IMG/VR virus record: IMGVR_UViG_3300011432_000050
Span: 1-21,738 of that record
Length of the DNA: 21,738 nucleotides
Reading direction: 5' to 3' (one strand)
Origin: a virus
Shown: one piece after another, positions 3,174 through 15,677 of the stretch
Layout: the number at the start of each line of letters is the position of its first letter
How positions within the stretch are numbered: position 1 is the stretch's first letter
Position numbers and translations under genes: made by a program
Notes under the pieces: model-generated
Databases searched by the model: none
Told to the model about the DNA's origin: nothing
The model's input: only the letters and a program-made list of their open reading frames with translations

Positions 3174-3226
3174 GCGTGTGAGCGAATGCGTGAGCGGGTA
3201 GTACCTTTCTTTTCTAGCTCACACGC
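3174..3226 (+). promoter_or_regulatory. 10-bp inverted repeat ending just before the large terminase start
   Basis: GCGTGTGAGC (3174-3183) is complementary to GCTCACACGC (3217-3226), which ends two bases before the GTG start at 3229. Three GTGAGCG words lie in the left part (from 3170). Pairing in the transcript would bury the region immediately upstream of the start codon, suggesting control of large terminase translation. Confidence 0.5.
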
Positions 3227-3228
3227 AT

Positions 3229-4743
3229 GTGTCAACCATTTCCTCGAAGGACTATTTAGCTAGAACTCTCTCCCAGCAGTCGGCAATTACGGCCGAGCTG
3301 CGGCGGAGGAGATATGCCCTCGATCCGGTGCTCTGGGCGCGAGAGGTTCTCGGGGATACGCTCTGGTCCCAACAGATGCGTATCATGGAGTCTGTTCGAG
3401 ACCACCGCAAGACCGCCGTCCGCTCCTGCCACGAAATCGGAAAGAGTTTTATTGCAGCCGAAGTGATTGGATGGTTCATCGCAACGCGCCGCATTGGCGA
3501 TGCGTTTGTGGTGACATCCGCGCCTACGGCGAAACAGGTGGCGGCCATCTTGTGGCGCGAAATCGGCCGCGTACACGGACGTGGCGATCTTCCTGGGCGG
3601 GTGACTGCCACGGAGTGGAAAGCCGTTCCCGTGCTGCCGGATGGTCGCCCCGGTAAAGAAGAACTAGTCGGGTTCGGCCGCAAGCCGGATGACTATGACA
3701 TGACAGCCTTCCAGGGGATTCATGCTCCGGAAGTGCTTGTCGTGTTTGACGAGGCGGATGGTATGCCTCCCGAGCTCTGGGAAGCGGCCGACTCGCTGAT
3801 GGCGAATGACGACTCTAAGATGTTGGTCATCGGCAACCCGGATAACCCGCAGTCACAGTTCCGCGAGGTCTGTAAGCCGGGCTCCGGGTTCAACACGATT
3901 GGAGTCAGTGCATTTGATTCGCCCAACTTCACCGGTGAACCAATGCCAGAGCGCGTCCGGAAGCAACTTATCGGACCACTCTATGTCGAGGAGAAGAGAC
4001 GAAAGTGGGCTCCTCGATGGACCTGGACAGATGACGGCTCCCGGGTCGTATGCCCCGAAGGAGTCGATCCTCTCGACACGAATCCCTACTGGCAAAGCAA
4101 GATCCTAGGACAGTTTCCCGAACGGGCGGACGCCGACGGGCTGATTCCGGAGGTGTGGATTGCACAAGCCCGAGCCAGAAATCTTCCAGCTCACGGCCCC
4201 TATCAACTTGGGGTTGATGTCGGCGGTGGTGGCGACGCCTCCACCATCGGATTACGTAACGGCGTTCAGTTTAAAATCCTGCACGAAGATCACAACCCGG
4301 ACACGATGGCAACAACCGGACGGGTCGTGGACTACCTCGCCAAGACAAATAGCGACTGCGCCAAGGTTGACGTAATCGGTATCGGGCGGGGCGTGGTGGA
4401 TAGAGGCCTCGAACTGGAACTGCCGTTCATCGGGATTAACGTTGGTGAAAGACCGTCAGAGCCGGAACGGTTTGCGAACCTTCGGGCGGAATACTACTGG
4501 AAGCTCCGCGAACGGTTTGAGTCGGGCCAAATCGTCATGGAAGAAGACGATGAAGACACCGCGGCCGAACTGGTGGAGCTGAAGTACAAACGGCTCAGCA
4601 ATGGAAAGATAGAAATTGAGAGCAAGCAGCAGATGAAGAATCGCGGCGTGCCGAGCCCCAATCGGGCCGAGGCCATGATGCTGGCGTTCGCCGAGCCGAA
4701 AAAGGTGGTTGGCGGAGTGCTTGCTGGAGTGTGCACATGGTAA
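3229..4743 (+). CDS. terL: large terminase subunit (ATPase and nuclease)
   Basis: This encodes 504 residues: the motor that drives genome packaging into the prohead and cuts the concatemer. An atypical Walker A (RSCHEIGKS, residues 65-73) and a Walker B (LVVFDEAD, 170-177) mark the N-terminal ATPase, followed by an IGNP motif (201-204) typical of the coupling segment. The C-terminal RNase H-like nuclease is indicated by LGVDVGGGGDAS (Asp330), KVDVIGIG (Asp381) and the end motif PNRAEAMMLAF, where Glu481 stands in for the commoner Asp. GTG at 3229 is the only start between the upstream in-frame stop (3199) and the ATPase domain, apart from rarer codons. No clear Shine-Dalgarno precedes it. The end overlaps the portal gene. 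Confidence 0.93.
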   Translation: MSTISSKDYLARTLSQQSAITAELRRRRYALDPVLWAREVLGDTLWSQQMRIMESVRDHRKTAVRSCHEIGKSFIAAEVIGWFIATRRIGDAFVVTSAPTAKQVAAILWREIGRVHGRGDLPGRVTATEWKAVPVLPDGRPGKEELVGFGRKPDDYDMTAFQGIHAPEVLVVFDEADGMPPELWEAADSLMANDDSKMLVIGNPDNPQSQFREVCKPGSGFNTIGVSAFDSPNFTGEPMPERVRKQLIGPLYVEEKRRKWAPRWTWTDDGSRVVCPEGVDPLDTNPYWQSKILGQFPERADADGLIPEVWIAQARARNLPAHGPYQLGVDVGGGGDASTIGLRNGVQFKILHEDHNPDTMATTGRVVDYLAKTNSDCAKVDVIGIGRGVVDRGLELELPFIGINVGERPSEPERFANLRAEYYWKLRERFESGQIVMEEDDEDTAAELVELKYKRLSNGKIEIESKQQMKNRGVPSPNRAEAMMLAFAEPKKVVGGVLAGVCTW

Positions 4744-7461: not shown

Positions 7462-7875
7462 ATGTCGGCTTCCAAGGCGGTCGTCCTTCAGGGCGTCCCA
7501 ACGTACAACGAGAATGGTGTAGCTAGCGAGAATGGAATCATTCCTGGGATGCTCGTCCAGGGTGTGACCACCATCGCCAAGCACAACGTTGCTGGCGGTG
7601 TCGCTGCCCGCACGTTCGCCCTCGAACGTGATGAAATGGGTGATGCGCTGGACGTGGCGTACGTGATTGGCGACGTTGTCAAGGTGGGATCGTTCTCACC
7701 CGGTGACGTGGTCAACGCAGTCGTCGCATCTGGTGCGAACATCGCAGCAGGTTCATTCGTCGAAAGCGCCGGCAATGGTGCTGTCCGTGTGTATGCGGCC
7801 GGTACACGCATTGGTCGCGCTGTGGAAACTCAGGCAGCTGCCCCAGCAACGCGTCTCGCGATCGAAATCTACTAA
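7462..7875 (+). CDS. capsid decoration / stabilising protein
   Basis: This encodes 137 residues just upstream of the major capsid gene, where siphoviruses often encode the small outer-surface protein that cements the capsid lattice. The sequence is rich in beta-prone valine/glycine segments. It carries the pattern IIPGMLVQGV near the start, then VAARTFALERDEMGDALDVAYVIGDVV, then SFSPGDVVNAVVASGANIAAGSFVESAGNGAVRV, which I recall from capsid-stabilising proteins in phages with encapsulin-like capsids. A very strong ribosome site (AAGGAGAGGAG, 7445-7455) precedes the ATG, consistent with abundant product. No membrane segments are seen. Confidence 0.72.
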   Translation: MSASKAVVLQGVPTYNENGVASENGIIPGMLVQGVTTIAKHNVAGGVAARTFALERDEMGDALDVAYVIGDVVKVGSFSPGDVVNAVVASGANIAAGSFVESAGNGAVRVYAAGTRIGRAVETQAAAPATRLAIEIY

Positions 7876-7922: not shown

Positions 7923-9179
7923 ATGAATGCAGTCGTAGAGACTGGCCGCGAGTTCTGGGGCGCTTCCGACGGCAAGTGGGCCGGCGAGCAGATGCTCAAG
8001 GCTCTCGAAGCTGGTCGCCCATTGGCAGCCAAGGAGCTTCGCGTCGCTTCTACTCTCCGCAAGGATGAGTGGAAGGTGTTCGACGAGGCTCTCGTCGAGG
8101 AAGTTCACTTGCGTCTCCGTGGTGTCGCCGATCTGTACGGGGCGGGCCTCACGAAGAGCATCAGTGGCGGACTCGGAAAGACGGTCTACGAGTACGAGAA
8201 GATGTCCGACATGACGCCTGCCATCGTGTCGATGGACGGCAACGTGCGTTCGGACAACGATCGCGTGGACTTCAGCCGGGCTGGCATTCCGCTGCCCATC
8301 ACCCACAAGGACTTCAACCTCAACCTGCGGACGCTTCAGGCCTCCCGCAGCGGCGGTGAAGGCCTCGATACCGTTCAACTTCGTGTCTGCGGGCGTCTCA
8401 TTGCTGAGAAGCTCGAAGACATGCTGTTCAACGGTTCTACCAAGATCTACCAGGGCCTTCCGATCTACGGGTACACGACGTTCCCGCAGCGGAACAAGCT
8501 CGCCTTCGGTACGGGCGGCGCGTGGTCCTCGGGTAGCAAGACCGGTGAGCAGAAGCTCAACGACGTCCTTGCGATGATCGCTGCCGCCAACGCCGATCGT
8601 ATGTACGGACCGTTTGTCCTGTACATCCCGGCGACGGACGCAGTGGCCCTCAACCAGGACTTCAAGACAGCTTCCGACAAGTCGGTTCTGTCCCGCCTCC
8701 TGGAGATTCCGGAACTCTCCTCGATCCGCACGAGCGACGTTCTCGCTGCGGACAACCTGCTTCTCGTCCAAATGACGGCGGACAACGTCCAGCTGCTCGT
8801 TGGAGAGCCACTGCAGAACATTCAGTGGGACATCAACGGCGGGTTCACCATCGCGTTCAAGAGCTTCACGATCCAGGTACCGCTGATTCGTGCTGACGCC
8901 GCCGGCCGTTCCGGTATCGTTCACATGAACGTCACCGGCACGTTGCTTCGTGACTCTGGCGATGAGATTCGCGCAGCGGTTTCGGACCGCAACCTGAACG
9001 AGCCCACGATCGAGGTGGACAAGGCTGGTGTGGTCCGGGCGATTATCGCCAACGACGACACTCTGCCGGAGAAGCCGGATCAGGGTCTGCCGGGTGACGG
9101 GCGTGAGCGTCGTCCGCGGGTGGACAACGAACTTCCGGAGACTCCGGAGCCGAAGAAGACTGGCGACGCGAAGAAGTAG
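7923..9179 (+). CDS. major capsid protein, encapsulin/linocin-like family
   Basis: This encodes 418 residues forming the HK97-fold shell. The core resembles the encapsulin/linocin (bacteriocin family) branch: GIPLPITHKDFNLNLRTLQASRSGGEGLDT around residues 118-147, an RLIAEKLEDMLFNGS helix, and an IPELSSIRTSDVL segment. The family core ends near residue 345. About 70 further residues are charged, proline-rich and probably disordered (DTLPEKPDQGLPGDGRERRPRVDNELPETPEPKK). AGAGGAG lies five bases before the ATG. GC-rich, strongly biased third positions fit a highly expressed gene. A weak hairpin (CAGTC/GACTG, 7883-7898) lies in the 47-base gap upstream. The tail is longer than in cellular encapsulins as I know them. 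Confidence 0.88.
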   Translation: MNAVVETGREFWGASDGKWAGEQMLKALEAGRPLAAKELRVASTLRKDEWKVFDEALVEEVHLRLRGVADLYGAGLTKSISGGLGKTVYEYEKMSDMTPAIVSMDGNVRSDNDRVDFSRAGIPLPITHKDFNLNLRTLQASRSGGEGLDTVQLRVCGRLIAEKLEDMLFNGSTKIYQGLPIYGYTTFPQRNKLAFGTGGAWSSGSKTGEQKLNDVLAMIAAANADRMYGPFVLYIPATDAVALNQDFKTASDKSVLSRLLEIPELSSIRTSDVLAADNLLLVQMTADNVQLLVGEPLQNIQWDINGGFTIAFKSFTIQVPLIRADAAGRSGIVHMNVTGTLLRDSGDEIRAAVSDRNLNEPTIEVDKAGVVRAIIANDDTLPEKPDQGLPGDGRERRPRVDNELPETPEPKKTGDAKK

Positions 9180-9186
9180 GTAAATC

Positions 9187-9702
9187 ATGGACTTTGACGC
9201 GACAGTCGGCGGGCCAGACTCCACTAGTTTCGTAACCGTTGAAGAGGCGGATGCATACTTCACGGCACACCCGTTTGGAGAAAACTGGTTCGAACTTGAT
9301 GAGTCGCAGAAAGAGTCCTATCTCATGATGGCTACGCGAACGCTGTCGGCGCAATGCTGGACGGGTCAGGCGAGTTCGCCTGACCAAGCGCTCGCGTGGC
9401 CGCGCACGGGGATGTTGGGTACCAATGGGTACCCAATTCCTTCGGACATTATTCCGAGGGAAATCAAGTACATGACGTACGAGCTGGCTTTTCGCACCTA
9501 CTCTGAAGGATCAACTGGTTCTTCGAGTACCGGTGATCAGGGACTCAAGCGAGTGAAGGCTGGTTCAGTCGAGGTAGAATACTTCAGCCCGGGGAGCATG
9601 GAAGGGGCATTCAGTCTCGTACCTTCAGATATCAAGGCGTACGGAAGTGCTTCTTGGTTCTGCACGTCACCGGGTCAGTTTGCTGAATTCGTGGTAATCT
9701 AA
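9187..9702 (+). CDS. head-tail connector (adaptor; DnaT-like domain)
   Basis: This encodes 171 residues with the domain often named DnaT-like ssDNA-binding in databases, which in this position is a head completion adaptor binding under the portal. Diagnostic features are the TSFVTVEEADAYFTAHPFGENW opening, the segment SQKESYLMMATRTLSAQCWTG, the ALAWPRTGM motif and the IPREIKYMTYELAF helix. The C-terminal part (LKRVKAGSVEVEY) also fits the family. The stop overlaps the next ATG by one base (TAATG). Two strong inverted repeats lie inside the coding sequence (9364-9385 and 9415-9436). Confidence 0.85.
   Translation: MDFDATVGGPDSTSFVTVEEADAYFTAHPFGENWFELDESQKESYLMMATRTLSAQCWTGQASSPDQALAWPRTGMLGTNGYPIPSDIIPREIKYMTYELAFRTYSEGSTGSSSTGDQGLKRVKAGSVEVEYFSPGSMEGAFSLVPSDIKAYGSASWFCTSPGQFAEFVVI
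9364..9385. repeat. 10-bp-arm inverted repeat inside the adaptor gene
   Basis: GGTCAGGCGA and TCGCCTGACC are perfect complements with only GT between them. As RNA this is a 9-bp stem with an AGTT loop. Thirty bases later a second strong hairpin follows. Confidence 0.75.
9415..9436. repeat. 9-bp-arm inverted repeat inside the adaptor gene
   Basis: TTGGGTACC and GGTACCCAA are perfect complements around AATG. Together with 9364-9385 it gives two stable stem-loops within 73 bases of coding sequence, in the segment coding for the conserved WPRTGM motif and just after it. Confidence 0.7.
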
Positions 9703-10109
9703 TGGCTGGACTATCTGACGTTCTTCGTAACGGTGTAAAGACGATTTACGGTGTTACGAAGACCGCACAGACCAAGATTACTCTACATCGTTGGCAGGGG
9801 CAGGGTTACGACGGAGCGCCGAACTATGCGGCTCCTTTGACACTGACAGCGATCGTTGAATACAAACAAGAAGCCCGGCAGTCGAATACCGGCCAGCTCA
9901 GGACTTCTCGCGCGTATATCATCATTTTATCTCCGCTTTCTGCTTTGGGTGCTGCGGAACGTTCGGAACCAATAGATGAAAGAGATTTGATCACACTTCC
10001 GAACATGACTACGGGGCCGATCATTGAAACATACGGTGTGATTGACGCCAAGACTCAGTTGCCGTACTGCCACGAAATTTGGATGGGAGATCGTAGAGGA
10101 GATAATTAG
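9702..10109 (+). CDS. head-closure / head-tail joining protein
   Basis: This encodes 135 residues. By position after the adaptor it is the stopper or head-closure protein that seals the packaged genome and receives the tail. The sequence is beta-rich (TKITLHRWQGQGYDG, TLTAIVEYKQEARQ, SRAYIIILSPLSAL, DLITLPNMTTGPIIETYGVID, LPYCHEIWMGDR), as in compact beta-barrel connector proteins. The family was assigned by fold-like pattern and synteny, not by a single signature. It is translationally coupled to the adaptor (TAATG overlap), and its own stop overlaps the GTG start of the glycosyltransferase gene by one base. In a standard siphovirus the next gene would be the gp10-like protein now at 14274. 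Confidence 0.68.
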   Translation: MAGLSDVLRNGVKTIYGVTKTAQTKITLHRWQGQGYDGAPNYAAPLTLTAIVEYKQEARQSNTGQLRTSRAYIIILSPLSALGAAERSEPIDERDLITLPNMTTGPIIETYGVIDAKTQLPYCHEIWMGDRRGDN

Positions 10110-10813
10110 TGAAGCTGCTATCCATCCTGACAGTTACAAAGGCTGAACCGTATGCTGAGTATTTCCTGAAAAGGATGCAGCAGTTAGCAGTGGCGTCGAA
10201 CGCTGAACTTGTAATTGCAGGTGATGGAACAGAGGCGATAAATCAACTCAAGCGGTCCGGGTTTGGTGACGAAGACGTACTTGTTTCGGTGAAGTCCGAC
10301 GGCTATATCGAAAGCGTGTTGGACGCGGCGGTTCGGTGCTGTAGTGGTAAATATATTCTTAGATTAGATGATGACGAAGCTGTTTCTCCGGAGATGTTCA
10401 GATGGATAGTCAATCAAAACTTCACGGAAGCGGATCACTGGAAGTTCGCACGGGCTCATTTGTGGCACCACGCAAGCTTGTATATCACAAATGGACCCCT
10501 GTGGCCGGATCACCAGACACGATTGAGCGTAAGGAAGAAGTCTGGGGGGCGGACGAGTATACATGCAGGAAGCCCCTTTGGTGGCGGACGTCTGGCTCCG
10601 GTAGTTCTTGAGCATTGGAAGTTCCTCGTAAAATCGAGGGAGGAACGACGGGCGATAGCAAATAGATACGATTCTCATGGCATGGGGCTTGGAACGCAGG
10701 GTATGCTTTGGTTTAACATACCTGAAGAATCATATGTGAAGATGGAATTGAAAGATATATCTGAAGCGGCTCTCCAGGCGGTAATTGACGCCGAACAGTG
10801 GGTGGAAGCGTGA
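10109..10813 (+). CDS. glycosyltransferase, family 2-like (GT-A)
   Basis: This encodes 234 residues. The order LSILTVTKAEPYAEYFL (5-21), SDGYIESVLDAAVRCCSGKY (63-82) and ILRLDDDEAVSP (83-94) is that of GT-A family-2 transferases, where DDD at 87-89 would bind the metal of a nucleotide-sugar. A HWKFARAHLW segment and a HAGSPFGGGRL segment follow in the acceptor half. It is slightly short for the family and has no membrane span, so a soluble enzyme is expected. The start is GTG, overlapping the preceding stop by one base, with GAGGAG about eight bases upstream. It opens the four-gene cassette and is AT-richer than the upstream head genes. Sugar and acceptor cannot be read from sequence. Confidence 0.82.
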   Translation: MKLLSILTVTKAEPYAEYFLKRMQQLAVASNAELVIAGDGTEAINQLKRSGFGDEDVLVSVKSDGYIESVLDAAVRCCSGKYILRLDDDEAVSPEMFRWIVNQNFTEADHWKFARAHLWHHASLYITNGPLWPDHQTRLSVRKKSGGRTSIHAGSPFGGGRLAPVVLEHWKFLVKSREERRAIANRYDSHGMGLGTQGMLWFNIPEESYVKMELKDISEAALQAVIDAEQWVEA

Positions 10814-11379
10814 ATATTGACCAAGCCTTCGCCTCTGTGAAAAGAACAATGGAGCAATGGCCGAATGAAATTCGTCCGTTTACTCAGTTTCTTGCAGAAA
10901 AGAAGCCGGAGAATATTTTAGAAATTGGTGTAAGAAACGGCGGGACTGCTTCTTTGTGGTGCCATGTTGCTTCAGGATTAGTGGTTGGGGTTGATTGGGA
11001 TCAACGTGATAGTTTGGGACATTCCAATACTATTCAACTTTCGAACGCTATGCTGTCGGATTACCCAAATTATAGATTTGTCTTTGGTGATTCGCACTCG
11101 GAAAGTACACGGAAACTCATTGAAAGTTTGGTACCAGAAGTAGATTTCCTGTTCATTGACGGGGACCATAGCTACGAGGGCGTAAAGAAAGATTTTGAGA
11201 TGTACAGTCCGCTGGTTAAATCAGGCGGGTTGATTGCTTTTCACGATATTGTAGATACAGACCTCATTCGTAGCGCAGGGCACGGAGTTCATATTTTCTG
11301 GCGTCAGCTTAAGGGTAAGAAGACAGAATTCTGCATTAACGGTGCTTGGGGCGGAATCGGCGTTTTGGAGACTGAATGA
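10810..11379 (+). CDS. SAM-dependent methyltransferase (Methyltransf_24-like)
   Basis: This encodes 189 residues with a class I Rossmann fold. NILEIGVRNGGTASLW (35-50) is the SAM-binding motif I region, VVGVDWD (58-64) the acidic end of strand 2, and VDFLFIDGDHSYEGVKKDFE (111-130) with SGGLIAFHDI (138-147) the pattern of Methyltransf_24 and related cephalosporin-hydroxylase-like enzymes, often found in glycan clusters acting on sugar hydroxyls. I chose GTG 10810 because it overlaps the previous stop as GTGA with GGTGGA just upstream; a GTG at 10798 is also possible. The C-terminus (GAWGGIGVLE) fits the family. The likely role is O-methylation of the glycan made by the neighbours, which is inference. 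Confidence 0.8.
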   Translation: MNIDQAFASVKRTMEQWPNEIRPFTQFLAEKKPENILEIGVRNGGTASLWCHVASGLVVGVDWDQRDSLGHSNTIQLSNAMLSDYPNYRFVFGDSHSESTRKLIESLVPEVDFLFIDGDHSYEGVKKDFEMYSPLVKSGGLIAFHDIVDTDLIRSAGHGVHIFWRQLKGKKTEFCINGAWGGIGVLETE

Positions 11380-12164
11380 TCCAGATTCCTCACTTGGAAA
11401 CGGACATTACTACTGCCTGCCAGCTCTCCTGCGTGGCGTGCAACCATCACGTTCCCCTGTGGCGGAAAGTTGGACCTAAGCACGCTTCTGTTGAGCAGGT
11501 GAAGCGGGATCTGAACCACCTCACTACTATACTACACGCGCACGTGTGGGGAGCGTTGGGTGGGGAGCCTACCCTGAACCCCGACCTCGTAAATATTCTA
11601 CAGATTGCTCGTCACAGCGGTATTGCTGACAAGCTCGAGGTGTGGACCAATGGTCTCCTACTCCCTCGAATGAGCGAAGCGTTCTGGCGTAGCTTTGATG
11701 TGCTAGTCCTGTCAATCTATCCAGGTAAGCACACCGAAGAAAGTCTCAAGTGGATCATGACAAAGTGCGCCACTTCGGGCGTGAAGTTTTCACCCCGTGA
11801 TGAGACAAAGAATCCAAACTTCCGCACGCTACTCGAGAAGGTTCCCACAGGCTACGAAGAGACAAAGCGAAAATATGCTGGTTGTTTCTTTCGGCAGTTT
11901 TCGCGTGTTGCGAACTGGGGATACTTTTATACATGTTGCTGTGCTCCCCATATGTCTACGCTCGTGCAGGGAAAAGCGGAAAATCCGGACGGGATTAAAA
12001 TAGAAGGACTGACTGAAGAAGCGCTGTATGCGTATCTGGCAGACCCAGAGCCGCTTTCAGCATGTACAACTTGCGCCGGTCGGGATACTGCGATCAGTAT
12101 TCCCTGGCGAGAGGAGCGGGATCCAATTAAATGGTTGCGCGCGAGCGCCGGGAGCGTGGCATGA
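11376..12164 (+). CDS. radical SAM enzyme with extra C-terminal cysteines
   Basis: This encodes 262 residues. The CxxxCxxC iron-sulfur motif is Cys15, Cys19 and Cys22 (ACQLSCVACNHH), and GALGGEPTLNP (59-69) is the SAM-binding GGE motif, followed by KLEVWTNGLLL (86-96). The C-terminal part has additional cysteines at 170, 187-189 and 230/233 (CFFRQF, YTCCCAPHM, CTTCAGRD), as in SPASM-like domains carrying an auxiliary cluster. It is therefore probably a complete oxygen-sensitive enzyme that modifies a sugar, lipid-linked intermediate or peptide side chain. It overlaps the methyltransferase stop and the next start as ATGA on both sides. Substrate unknown. Its place among capsid and tail genes is unusual. 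Confidence 0.85.
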   Translation: MIQIPHLETDITTACQLSCVACNHHVPLWRKVGPKHASVEQVKRDLNHLTTILHAHVWGALGGEPTLNPDLVNILQIARHSGIADKLEVWTNGLLLPRMSEAFWRSFDVLVLSIYPGKHTEESLKWIMTKCATSGVKFSPRDETKNPNFRTLLEKVPTGYEETKRKYAGCFFRQFSRVANWGYFYTCCCAPHMSTLVQGKAENPDGIKIEGLTEEALYAYLADPEPLSACTTCAGRDTAISIPWREERDPIKWLRASAGSVA

Positions 12165-14284
12165 AAGTATTTCTGAAGACTCAGTATCAGCTCAGCATAG
12201 CGATGGACCGCATTGTATCGAACTTGATTCGTTACAAGTCCAGCAAAGTGACGATTGTCAACTCCCCAGAAGAATCAGATCTGGCTGTTCTGCACGTAAT
12301 TGGATATGAAGAGACTGCGCAGAGCATCCGTCGACTCACGGCGCTTGGTAAGAAATACGCAATGATTCAGTATTGCCTGCGTTCTACTGAGGCACAGAGC
12401 GCGCAGGAGTGGATTCCATTGTGGACAGAAGCGGCCTTTGTTTGGTCGTACTACGATTTGCCGAAACTGTGCAAGGAAGAGGGTCTGGAGTTCCCGGACA
12501 CACCGTTCTTGTTTGCACCACTTGGTGTCGATACACAGGTGTTTTCCCAGGGACTTAGTCTTGCCAAGTATCCACACAAGGTTCTCACAACGGGAACAGT
12601 CGCGCCAAGTGAGTGCATCGATCTTGTAAATGCGGCGTGTGCTCAGGTAGACACTCGAATGGGTGCCCACATGCACGTGGGAATCCTGACAGAAACTACC
12701 GAAGAATTCAACGGCTCAATTGTCCACTACGAGCATGAAATACCCGATAACAGACTCGCCCAGCTTTACCGACAGACAGAATATGTATGCGGACTACGTC
12801 GAGTCGAGGGGTTCGAACTCCCAGCAGCAGAGGGACTTCTTTGTGGGACAATTCCTATTCTTTTTGACAAGCCTCACTATCGGGATTGGTTTGGCGACTT
12901 TGGTGCTTTGTTCATCAAAGAAGGCACTGATGACGAAATCATTCAGAGTCTTGTAGAAATTTTCCAGAAGCCAAAATCACATTGGCCGCCGAGAGACATC
13001 GAGGGTGCCAAGAAGCAGTTCGATTGGCAGCACATTTGTGAAACGTTCTGGGAATTTGCTAACGAATTGGTTCCTGTTGATGCATCAACGTCAAATGTCC
13101 AGGTTAGTAAGTCCACGCGTCGACTTCTCTGGATTGGTGATGCTGTTGTTTCTACTGGTTTTGCGAAGTGTACACACCACATCCTCGAAACTGTCCGGCA
13201 CGAGTGGGATACCTATGTTCTTGGGTTGAACTATTTCGGTGACCCACATCAGTACCCGTATCCGATTTTCCCCTGTATTCGTGGCACACGAGGTGACATT
13301 TTTGGTCTCTCTCGTATTAAATCACTTATAGATTCAATTCGCCCTGAACTTGTGATAGTACAGAATGATCCATGGAACTTTCCAGAGTACATGAAAGCCA
13401 TTGGAAACGTGCCCACCGTTGGTGTTGTTGCGGTAGATGGCAAAAATTGTCGTGGAGAAGGACTAAATGGTCTTCTTCATGCGATTTTCTGGACAGACTT
13501 TGGCGCGAAAGAGGCAGCACTCGGTGGCTACCGTGGATCGTCTACGGTAATTCCGCTAGGAGTAGATAGAGAGATTTTCAAGCCTATCCGTAAAGAACTT
13601 GCCCGTCAATCCATGGGTTTGCCCCAGAAGCAGTCAAAAGGTTTTATTGTTGGAAATATCAACCGAAATCAGGCTCGGAAACGGCTGGACCTGACGATTC
13701 AGTACTTCTGCGAGTGGGTCAAGACCTATCGGGTTGACGACGCATATCTGTATCTGCACATTGCCCCTACTGCTGATGTAGGGTACGACGCTTCACAGTT
13801 GATGCGGTATTACGGATTGACAGGTCGCCTGATTCTCGCGGAACCTGATCCAGGGTTTGGCATTGCCGAGACGGCGCTCCCGTTTGTCTATAACAGTTTC
13901 GATGTCCAGGTCACGACTACTCAGGGCGAAGGCTTTGGACTGACCACCCTCGAAGGTATGGCCTGCGGTATTCCGCAAATTCTTCCTAACTGGTCAGCAC
14001 TTGGTGATTTGTTTTCTGATAGCTGTAATATGGTTTCTTGCCCCACTACAGCTTGCACGCCGAACAATATCAATGCGGTTGGCGGTGTGCCGGATAAAGA
14101 TGAATTCATTGGGGCTTTGAACAGTTTGTACAGCAACGAACAGTACCGATCGAATCGTAGTGAACAGGTGCTTCAGAAAGCTTCTGAGGCGCGATTCGTT
14201 TGGAAGAGCGTTGGAGACAAATACATCGAAGCTCTTGAGAATGTTTTTGCGCCGAAAGTGATGGTGAGTTCAAATGGCCTTTAG
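12161..14284 (+). CDS. tandem two-domain glycosyltransferase (GT4-like, GT-B fold)
   Basis: This encodes 707 residues containing two GT-B units. Unit one (about 1-305) ends with RVEGFELPAAEGLLCGTIPI, whose E216 and E224 form an E-x7-E motif. Unit two (about 320-705) has an STGFAK opening, VIPLGVDREIF, IVGNINRNQARKRLD (496-510, probable phosphate-binding segment) and QGEGFGLTTLEGMACGIPQI with E590 and E598 as a second E-x7-E. Both units thus look catalytically intact, so the protein may add two sugars in turn. ATG 12161 overlaps the radical SAM stop (ATGA) with GGGAG upstream; a longer start at 12131 is less likely. The end overlaps the gp10-like gene by 11 bases. Confidence 0.87.
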   Translation: MKVFLKTQYQLSIAMDRIVSNLIRYKSSKVTIVNSPEESDLAVLHVIGYEETAQSIRRLTALGKKYAMIQYCLRSTEAQSAQEWIPLWTEAAFVWSYYDLPKLCKEEGLEFPDTPFLFAPLGVDTQVFSQGLSLAKYPHKVLTTGTVAPSECIDLVNAACAQVDTRMGAHMHVGILTETTEEFNGSIVHYEHEIPDNRLAQLYRQTEYVCGLRRVEGFELPAAEGLLCGTIPILFDKPHYRDWFGDFGALFIKEGTDDEIIQSLVEIFQKPKSHWPPRDIEGAKKQFDWQHICETFWEFANELVPVDASTSNVQVSKSTRRLLWIGDAVVSTGFAKCTHHILETVRHEWDTYVLGLNYFGDPHQYPYPIFPCIRGTRGDIFGLSRIKSLIDSIRPELVIVQNDPWNFPEYMKAIGNVPTVGVVAVDGKNCRGEGLNGLLHAIFWTDFGAKEAALGGYRGSSTVIPLGVDREIFKPIRKELARQSMGLPQKQSKGFIVGNINRNQARKRLDLTIQYFCEWVKTYRVDDAYLYLHIAPTADVGYDASQLMRYYGLTGRLILAEPDPGFGIAETALPFVYNSFDVQVTTTQGEGFGLTTLEGMACGIPQILPNWSALGDLFSDSCNMVSCPTTACTPNNINAVGGVPDKDEFIGALNSLYSNEQYRSNRSEQVLQKASEARFVWKSVGDKYIEALENVFAPKVMVSSNGL

Positions 14285-14699
14285 AGTTACCATCAAGGGC
14301 GTTGAACAAATGAAGGGTCGTCTCAACCTTATGGGCTTAAAATTGGAGGGAAACCTTCAGAATGCTCTGATGGAAGAGATGAAGACAGAACAGGAAGAAG
14401 TAATTCGTAGAATTCCAAAAGACACACGTGCTTTGTCACAGTCTACGGAACTGTTCGAGGGAGTAAGAAAAGGTAGTCCTAATCGGAAGGGCATAGTTGC
14501 CGCCACGATTACTGTTGGTAATGACCTAACAAATCCGAAAACAGGTCGTAGAACAGCCGATTATGCAATTCAGGTGCATGAAGATTTGGAAGCACACCAT
14601 AATGAGGGGCAAGCGAAATTTCTTGAGAGTACGCTCAAGGAAGCTGCTCCGTATATGGCTGATCGTGTAATTCGGCGGTTGGATAAGAAGCTAGGCTAA
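14274..14699 (+). CDS. HK97 gp10-like neck / tail-completion protein
   Basis: This encodes 141 residues. The pattern of an N-terminal beta segment (FRVTIKGVEQM), a long helix (LEGNLQNALMEEMKTEQEEVIRRIPKDT, about 26-53) and the C-terminal DYAIQVHEDLEAHHNEGQAKFLESTLKEA motif (about 96-124) is typical of the HK97 gp10-like family, which sits between connector and tail. In the usual gene order it follows the head-closure protein; here four glycan-type genes intervene. GGTGAG lies just upstream of the ATG within the end of the glycosyltransferase gene, so the tail genes are translationally linked to the cassette. Confidence 0.83.
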   Translation: MAFRVTIKGVEQMKGRLNLMGLKLEGNLQNALMEEMKTEQEEVIRRIPKDTRALSQSTELFEGVRKGSPNRKGIVAATITVGNDLTNPKTGRRTADYAIQVHEDLEAHHNEGQAKFLESTLKEAAPYMADRVIRRLDKKLG

Positions 14700-15119: not shown

Positions 15120-15677
15120 ATGTCCGAGGGAATGTCGGCACAGGGAACACTCATCGCGGTCAGTCATGACCCCAAGTGGCCCATTATCAACCCGAGCGGT
15201 GGGGTTGCTGCGTTCACAAATATCGGCGAGTTGCGCGAGATCACCGCTCCGGCGCTCACGCGTAACACGATCGAACTGACGAACCACAACAACGCAGACG
15301 ACGAATACATTGTTGGTATTCGCCGTCACGGGGACATGACGTTCAACGTCAACTTCGTGCCTCGTAATTCTACCATCGATCACCTGACGGGCCTTCAGCA
15401 GAAGTGGTTCACAGGTAGTCGTAACATCTACAAGCTGACCTATCCCGACGGAACGGCGTGGATGTTCAGCGGGTTCATCACGAACTTCGGTGTATCGGCC
15501 CCGGTCGATGATCGTCTGTCGGCTGACGTGACGATTCGACCCACCGGAAGGCACGACTGGATCGTTGGCACGCCAAATCCGCCAACCCTTCTCGATTTCG
15601 AGTCGATGACGTCCTTGTCTCCGGACAAGGACAAGGACAGGGACCTCGGTGAGCGGTCCCGTCCGATTGCGCCGTAA
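15120..15677 (+). CDS. major tail tube protein
   Basis: This encodes 185 residues, the repeating ring subunit of the tail tube. An optimal ribosome site (AGGAGGT) five bases before the ATG fits a protein needed in many copies. The IGELREITAPALTRNTIELTNHNNADDEYIVGIRRHGDMTFNVNFVP region (about 36-82) and TYPDGTAWMFSGFITNFGVSAPVDDRLSADVTIRPTG (about 107-143) are characteristic of lambda gpV-like/tail-tube proteins. The last 25 residues (PDKDKDRDLGERSRP) are charged and probably exposed. GC-rich codons resemble those of the capsid gene. Its 3' end encodes a strong hairpin (15611-15632). Confidence 0.87.
   Translation: MSEGMSAQGTLIAVSHDPKWPIINPSGGVAAFTNIGELREITAPALTRNTIELTNHNNADDEYIVGIRRHGDMTFNVNFVPRNSTIDHLTGLQQKWFTGSRNIYKLTYPDGTAWMFSGFITNFGVSAPVDDRLSADVTIRPTGRHDWIVGTPNPPTLLDFESMTSLSPDKDKDRDLGERSRPIAP
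15611..15632 (+). repeat. hairpin in the 3' end of the tail tube gene
   Basis: GTCCTTGTC and GACAAGGAC form a perfect 9-bp stem around a TCCG loop, inside the coding sequence for the charged C-terminus. With the hairpin at 15698-15725 it gives two stable stems flanking the stop codon. Confidence 0.65.

Follow-up and report, generated by a model that had tools for sequence, protein, structure and literature searches.

What does a phage do with glycosyltransferases, a methyltransferase and a radical enzyme encoded among the genes that build its head and neck? The question is raised by a four-gene cassette in a 21.7-kb virus record (IMGVR_UViG_3300011432_000050), the whole of which was analysed here as the window: genes for a GT2-like glycosyltransferase, a Methyltransf_24 methyltransferase, a radical S-adenosylmethionine (SAM) enzyme and a double GT4 glycosyltransferase lie, in this order, between a head-closure gene and a Neck1 (gp10-like) gene. 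To our knowledge, phage particles are seldom regarded as glycosylated. With moderate confidence we propose that the cassette is a mobile virion-glycosylation module whose predicted acceptor is an abundant head or neck protein, a widespread and apparently undescribed module of uncultivated phages that represents a variant of virion glycosylation.

Four overlapping genes encode probable sugar-modifying enzymes

The cassette consists of the following genes:

10109..10813, + strand: GT2-like (GT-A fold) glycosyltransferase, 234 residues; GTG start; DDD motif at residues 87-89
10810..11379, + strand: SAM-dependent O-methyltransferase, 189 residues; Methyltransf_24, also RMNT_CmcI
11376..12164, + strand: predicted SpeY-like twitch radical SAM sugar enzyme, 262 residues; radical SAM cluster at C15/C19/C22
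12161..14284, + strand: two fused GT4 (GT-B) glycosyltransferases, 707 residues

From the closure gene to Neck1 the genes overlap by 1, 4, 4, 4 and 11 bases: the GT2-like gene starts at 10109, the last base of the closure gene, the downstream genes start at 10810 (GTGA), 11376 (ATGA) and 12161 (ATGA) within four-base overlaps, and Neck1 starts at 14274, 10 bases ahead of the end of the GT4 stop codon. These open reading frames, enzyme types and overlaps had been named in a sequence-only reading of the window, and the coordinates of frames and junctions agree. The four-gene arrangement is not a product of chance, because the same gene order recurs in several diverged phages. The radical SAM and GT4 genes are under purifying selection, with ratios of nonsynonymous to synonymous substitution (dN/dS) against the closest relative of 0.15 and 0.07, respectively; synonymous sites of the GT2-like gene are saturated.

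Because Pfam support for the GT2-like protein is weak (1.2e-3, under the cut-off), its assignment was settled by structure and profile searches: the predicted model adopts a GT-A fold (best Z 13.2), and D87-D89, a DXD-type motif as in GT2 glycosyltransferases, are invariant. The methyltransferase matches Methyltransf_24 above the Pfam cut-off (3e-15), as does the second half of the GT4 protein with Glycos_transf_1 (2.7e-12). The EX7E motif that, together with this profile, marks the GT4 family is invariant in both halves of the latter protein (E216/E224 and E590/E598), and most relatives encode the halves separately, as GT4a and GT4b. Among solved structures the second half is closest to chlorovirus B736L (PDB 3oy2, 7e-14), which comes from a eukaryotic algal virus and is a single glycosyltransferase unit, whereas the window's protein is a fusion of two. 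Hydropathy analysis of the four proteins revealed no membrane segment (maximum 19-residue hydropathy 1.25).

The radical SAM enzyme is a predicted member of the SpeY family

The product of 11376..12164 matches Pfam Radical_SAM under the cut-off (1.9e-5). It matches SpeY, a twitch radical SAM dehydrogenase, by sequence (1e-22, 26% identity), by profile (3e-33) and by structural alignment with VIA-align (Z 23.0, 2.9 Å over 238 residues), followed by BtrN (Z 12.7) and by MoaA and viperin (Z 10-11). Since the predicted model is of moderate confidence (predicted local distance difference test score, pLDDT, 76), the assignment leans mostly on the sequence match; sequence and model together place the enzyme in the SpeY family of twitch-type sugar enzymes. 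This sugar-type assignment bears out the earlier suggestion that the radical SAM gene is part of a glycan cassette.

The phage enzymes share with SpeY (PDB 7wzv, 7wzx, 7x0b) the fold, the CX3CX2C cluster motif, the GGEP motif and four aligned C-terminal cysteines. Both motifs are invariant in 22 non-redundant phage radical SAM sequences, and C170, C187, C230 and C233, which align with the SpeY cysteines of the auxiliary cluster, are equally constant (C170 and C187 in 22/22; C230 and C233 in all 21 sequences covering those positions). They differ from SpeY in being shorter, in being encoded in capsid operons rather than in an antibiotic cluster, and in carrying an extra cysteine, Cys188, invariant in 22/22, where the SpeY alignment has a proline. 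On account of this spare invariant cysteine we filed the enzyme in the SpeY fold family and not as a dehydrogenase. By analogy, Cys188 suggests an epimerase, and epimerisation is preferred over oxidation: in the twitch-type sugar epimerase HygY, mutation of a single cysteine reveals dehydrogenase activity, according to the title of a report (JACS 2021 143:15152, cited in PMC10991966). The parallel between Cys188 and the decisive HygY cysteine is suggested from that title.

A Streptomyces plasmid encodes a relative of the radical SAM enzyme (tblastn, 31% identity, 1e-24) between a glycosyltransferase and an epimerase gene, among DegT aminotransferases and galE. Two other roles were considered and rejected. 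A viperin-like antiviral function, prompted by a weak NCBIfam match, scores 26.9 bits against a cut-off of 180 and Z ~10 against 23 for SpeY. For maturation of peptides, including ribosomally synthesised and post-translationally modified peptides (RiPPs), SkfB-, SuiB- and PqqE-type structures reach Z 9-10 against the same 23, a comparison that included no systematic search for a precursor peptide.

The cassette recurs in one slot while the capsid diverges

In the closest relative (G002) the gene order is kept at 70-82% protein identity, except that the methyltransferase is missing without trace and the GT2 stop directly overlaps the radical SAM start; another relative (G003) retains radical SAM, GT4 and neck genes. 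More distant records (G006, G008, G009, G010, G011) carry the whole or a partial cassette in the same closure-neck slot. Among these slot relatives, identity to the window is 58-62% for the radical SAM enzyme, 23-55% for the capsid protein, 44-48% for GT2 and 32-49% for GT4. Altogether glycan genes lie between closure and neck genes in about 20 records, a tally that includes some near-duplicates, and across these the radical SAM enzyme, where present, is 47-78% identical compared to 23-55% for the capsid protein. That the slot is kept while the capsid protein diverges more than the radical SAM enzyme supports a virion module.

A profile scan with GT2 recovered 55 viral (metagenomic phage) loci, and mapping of the window's gene profiles on them defined GT2 and GT4b as the core, with GT4a, methyltransferase and radical SAM as variable members. 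The genes travel together and occupy the same slot, which the sequence-only reading had proposed to check; the methyltransferase is optional. That reading's statement that closure is normally followed directly by a gp10-like gene applies to some relatives, such as the cultured Brevundimonas phage MaInes, which has a related capsid protein (37%) and short genes following directly, with no glycan genes at the corresponding place; in the window's lineage, however, the slot usually holds glycan genes. The radical SAM gene, described there as uncommon, is absent from the isolated phages searched but present as the 22 non-redundant metagenomic sequences. Among 50,697 phage records there was no close relative of GT2 or radical SAM, the isolated phages searched gave only a weak Synechococcus match, and two short conserved-pattern scans of 84,980 prokaryote genomes, of a kind that misses distant relatives, found none.

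Three slot members carry additional genes. A ThyX-like gene, recognised by eye, lies between the cassette GT2 and radical SAM genes of G010 (L032:8732-9580), and in G009 the genes that follow the cassette include one for another radical SAM/SPASM protein (L055:7122-7922). In G006 a second radical SAM gene is apparently split over the contig ends (66715-67107 and 2-1066), which suggests a circular, possibly complete 67-kb genome.

The cassette lies beside unrelated capsid genes

In unrelated phages, too, the cassette directly follows the capsid gene, which strengthens the earlier point that its location is structural. At L074, L075 and L076 the capsid gene belongs to a different family (phrog_10/617, at 6e-30 or better in L074/L076), and behind it come a single small gene, then the cassette, then a head-tail adaptor (phrog_442); the L103 capsid protein belongs to phrog_1357, and those of L081, L094 and L106 are of a further kind (phrog_544 at 5e-6 for L081). 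The capsid proteins of the L074-L076, L103 and L081 groups have no BLASTP match (1e-3) to the window's or to each other's, whereas the radical SAM enzymes tested from these groups are 37-48% identical to the window's. In four capsid lineages (phrog_771, phrog_10/617, phrog_1357 and phrog_544) the cassette stands immediately behind the capsid gene or a few genes beyond it. This comparison leaves out L071 and L093; PHROGs does not recognise several of the candidate capsid or connector proteins of L094, L106 and L099, whose roles are assigned from synteny and, for the L094 and L106 capsid candidates, also from similarity to L081. The transferase genes thus adjoin structural genes, as expected for virion glycosylation, and the four unrelated capsid lineages with the cassette alongside support a virion module. 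The strongest case for an acceptor at the level of the capsid is made by this repeated arrival at capsid genes, and it is an argument from position.

Related cassettes also bring in further sugar enzymes. Several slot members without a radical SAM match encode such enzymes: a GT11 fucosyltransferase-like protein with FkbM methyltransferases (L112) and a DegT aminotransferase with a hexapeptide transferase (acyltransferase; G011, where the record is cut at its end). The L076 and L079 cassettes include a cytidylyltransferase-cupin protein and a class III aminotransferase, L076 additionally SIS, MptE-like and FkbM proteins, and L085 an aminotransferase and an MptE-like protein, both MptE-like matches falling just below the Pfam cut-off. 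Together with the Streptomyces sugar-gene context, these added enzymes likewise support a virion-glycosylation module.

A candidate route to virion glycosylation

In the pathway that we propose, one or more of the GT2-like and the two GT4 transferases would use host nucleotide sugars to place a short glycan on an abundant protein of the head or neck and to lengthen it, acting while this protein is produced from the late operon. Next, the SpeY-like enzyme would abstract hydrogen from one carbon of the sugar and either epimerise that centre, as we prefer, with Cys188 as a possible hydrogen donor, or oxidise it to a ketone like SpeY; the optional methyltransferase would cap a hydroxyl. The phage may benefit through masking of the particle or changed adsorption. 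Candidate acceptors in the window are:

7923..9179, + strand: major capsid protein (DUF6260, phrog_771)
7462..7875, + strand: small protein ahead of the capsid gene, decoration-like by position; putative role
15120..15677, + strand: tail-tube-like protein, assigned by position; putative role

Virion glycosylation by phage-encoded enzymes has a precedent in the mycobacteriophages Che8 (gp110), Corndog (gp38) and Myrna, whose capsid or tail-tube proteins are glycosylated by their own glycosyltransferases (PMC12363180, PMC11256854). These are different phages, no radical SAM step is described for them in the same two papers, and in the Che8 relative Maravista the genes lie near the 3' genome end, not between closure and neck genes. 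The cultured Synechococcus phage S-CBS4 encodes a glycosyltransferase, a hypothetical protein and a methyltransferase (gp014-gp016), of which a GT4b relative (31%) and the methyltransferase stand behind the portal gene in the head module; it has no radical SAM or GT2 relative by sequence, and the position differs from the window's. In a limited search of the open literature, no cassette of this kind was described as including a radical SAM enzyme. The SpeY and B736L matches, the lack of membrane segments and the mycobacteriophage precedent all favour virion glycosylation.

Several observations weigh against this interpretation: in G007 the cassette forms the end of a replication operon, opposite the structural genes; gaps in late operons can accept insertions in general, and some of them hold lysis-like, ThyX-like or tail genes; and several carriers, including the window's phage type, bear hydroxymethyluracil-type DNA genes. 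The sequence-only reading had named close relatives with these genes in unrelated positions, near host-surface glycan genes, as speaking against it; one carrier, G007, has the cassette outside the structural genes. A more specific version, in which the twitch radical SAM enzyme is an epimerase that inverts a centre on the attached glycan to give a stereochemically unusual coat sugar, and in which the module was taken up independently beside capsid genes in at least four unrelated lineages, is put forward tentatively, as a possibility that we would not yet bet on.

The demonstrated cases of glycosylated particles in the literature consulted are mycobacteriophages, and the cassette suggests that a second family of candidate glycosylated phages, spread across metagenomes, applies antibiotic-type radical chemistry to a virus coat. 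Should the proposal prove correct, these phages would be a new place to find sugar epimerases or dehydrogenases, and the influence of particle sugars on adsorption or recognition would have an explanation that can be tested.

DNA as a rival acceptor

Alternatively, the cassette could decorate phage DNA, placing onto 5-hydroxymethyluracil a sugar that is modified by the radical SAM enzyme and methyltransferase and shields the DNA from host nucleases. The argument starts from a 48.3-kb record (G004) that is near-identical to the window (99.4% over 19 kb) and carries, beyond the tape-measure and tail genes, an opposite-strand block with a helicase and an exonuclease. Encoded there (L023:43-5084) are a thymidylate-synthase homologue, a 5-hydroxymethyl-2'-deoxyuridine (5-hmdU) DNA kinase (HMUDK) helical domain (3.5e-38), a P-loop kinase, an HD protein and DUF3310, and the block further includes a GT2-like protein and, where the contig ends, a GFO/IDH/MocA fragment. 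Judged from this block, likely one for thymine hypermodification, the window's phage type probably makes modified thymine, which makes DNA a real rival acceptor. A comparison of the cassette GT2 with the GT2-like protein of this block did not support homology between the two (E 0.04).

HMUDK is found in G004, G006, G025, G026 and G028, the last four also with thymidylate synthase. The search was negative in 36 further records, among them fragments and seven phages that were picked by capsid and do not carry the cassette. For thymidylate synthase it was negative in G024 (102 kb), G007 (51 kb), G033, G034 (46 kb) and G036; the carriers G024, G007 and G034, whose records may be incomplete, thus yielded neither gene. 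G009 has 7-deazaguanine-type genes instead, encoding PTPS and GTP cyclohydrolase I (L054:248-1973), along with a QueE-like radical SAM gene that was recognised by eye and has no Pfam match. In G006 a TET-associated glycosyltransferase (TAGT, PF20691, 8e-16; L048:19136-19927) stands beside the 5-hmdU kinase gene and at a distance from the late cassette; G006 thus has a separate enzyme for glycosylating DNA. In these records the cassette does not appear to track one DNA chemistry, and DNA decoration leaves the four unrelated capsid neighbourhoods unexplained. We retain it, the main rival, as an unlikely alternative because of the overlap within the window's own lineage.

Two side observations concern G004. 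Left of about position 2674 of the window, identity to G004 falls from 99.4% to 84-90%, and an HNH-like gene of G004 (3182-3649) corresponds to a stretch of about 50 bases in the window; we read this as a recombination or homing-gene boundary. A 601-residue tail-region protein of G004 (L023:16942-18747) has no Pfam match below 0.001, with weak DUF7910 similarity only, and could serve in the tail as a sugar-binding or hydrolase-like protein.

Possible host-surface or diffusible products

Phage glycosyltransferases are commonly interpreted as modifiers of the host surface, for example in pelagimyophages (PMC7029224), and the cassette enzymes could likewise alter a cell-surface glycan, causing superinfection exclusion or releasing progeny from receptors. 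The enzyme types overlap those of O-antigen synthesis, and tail-like and lysis-like genes occur near the cassette in G006 and G009. However, the window's cassette has no membrane-bound, lipid-carrier or flippase enzyme and, unlike a gtr-like system, no protein with a hydrophobic segment; expression would be late through coupling to head genes, and placement at capsid genes recurs. We regard this explanation as improbable. Least probable is a small diffusible sugar compound, or modification of a non-virion protein, from a merely tolerated late-operon insertion gap, since, although the closest solved enzyme and the Streptomyces relative come from antibiotic or sugar gene clusters and one carrier has the cassette elsewhere, the core transferases in the window lack a dedicated scaffold synthase and the capsid-gene neighbourhood is recurrent, the gaps not being random.

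Flanking genes and base composition

The cassette is flanked by:

9187..9702, + strand: head-tail adaptor Ad1 (phrog_477, 3e-34)
9702..10109, + strand: head-closure protein, assigned by position
14274..14699, + strand: Neck1 / tail completion (gp10-like) protein (phrog_5, weak, 7e-4)

The head-closure label rests on position because the protein of 9702-10109 has no family match. The window has a G+C content of about 60% in its left third; this drops to 39% near 18-19.5 kb, within the tape-measure gene, and is higher again thereafter.

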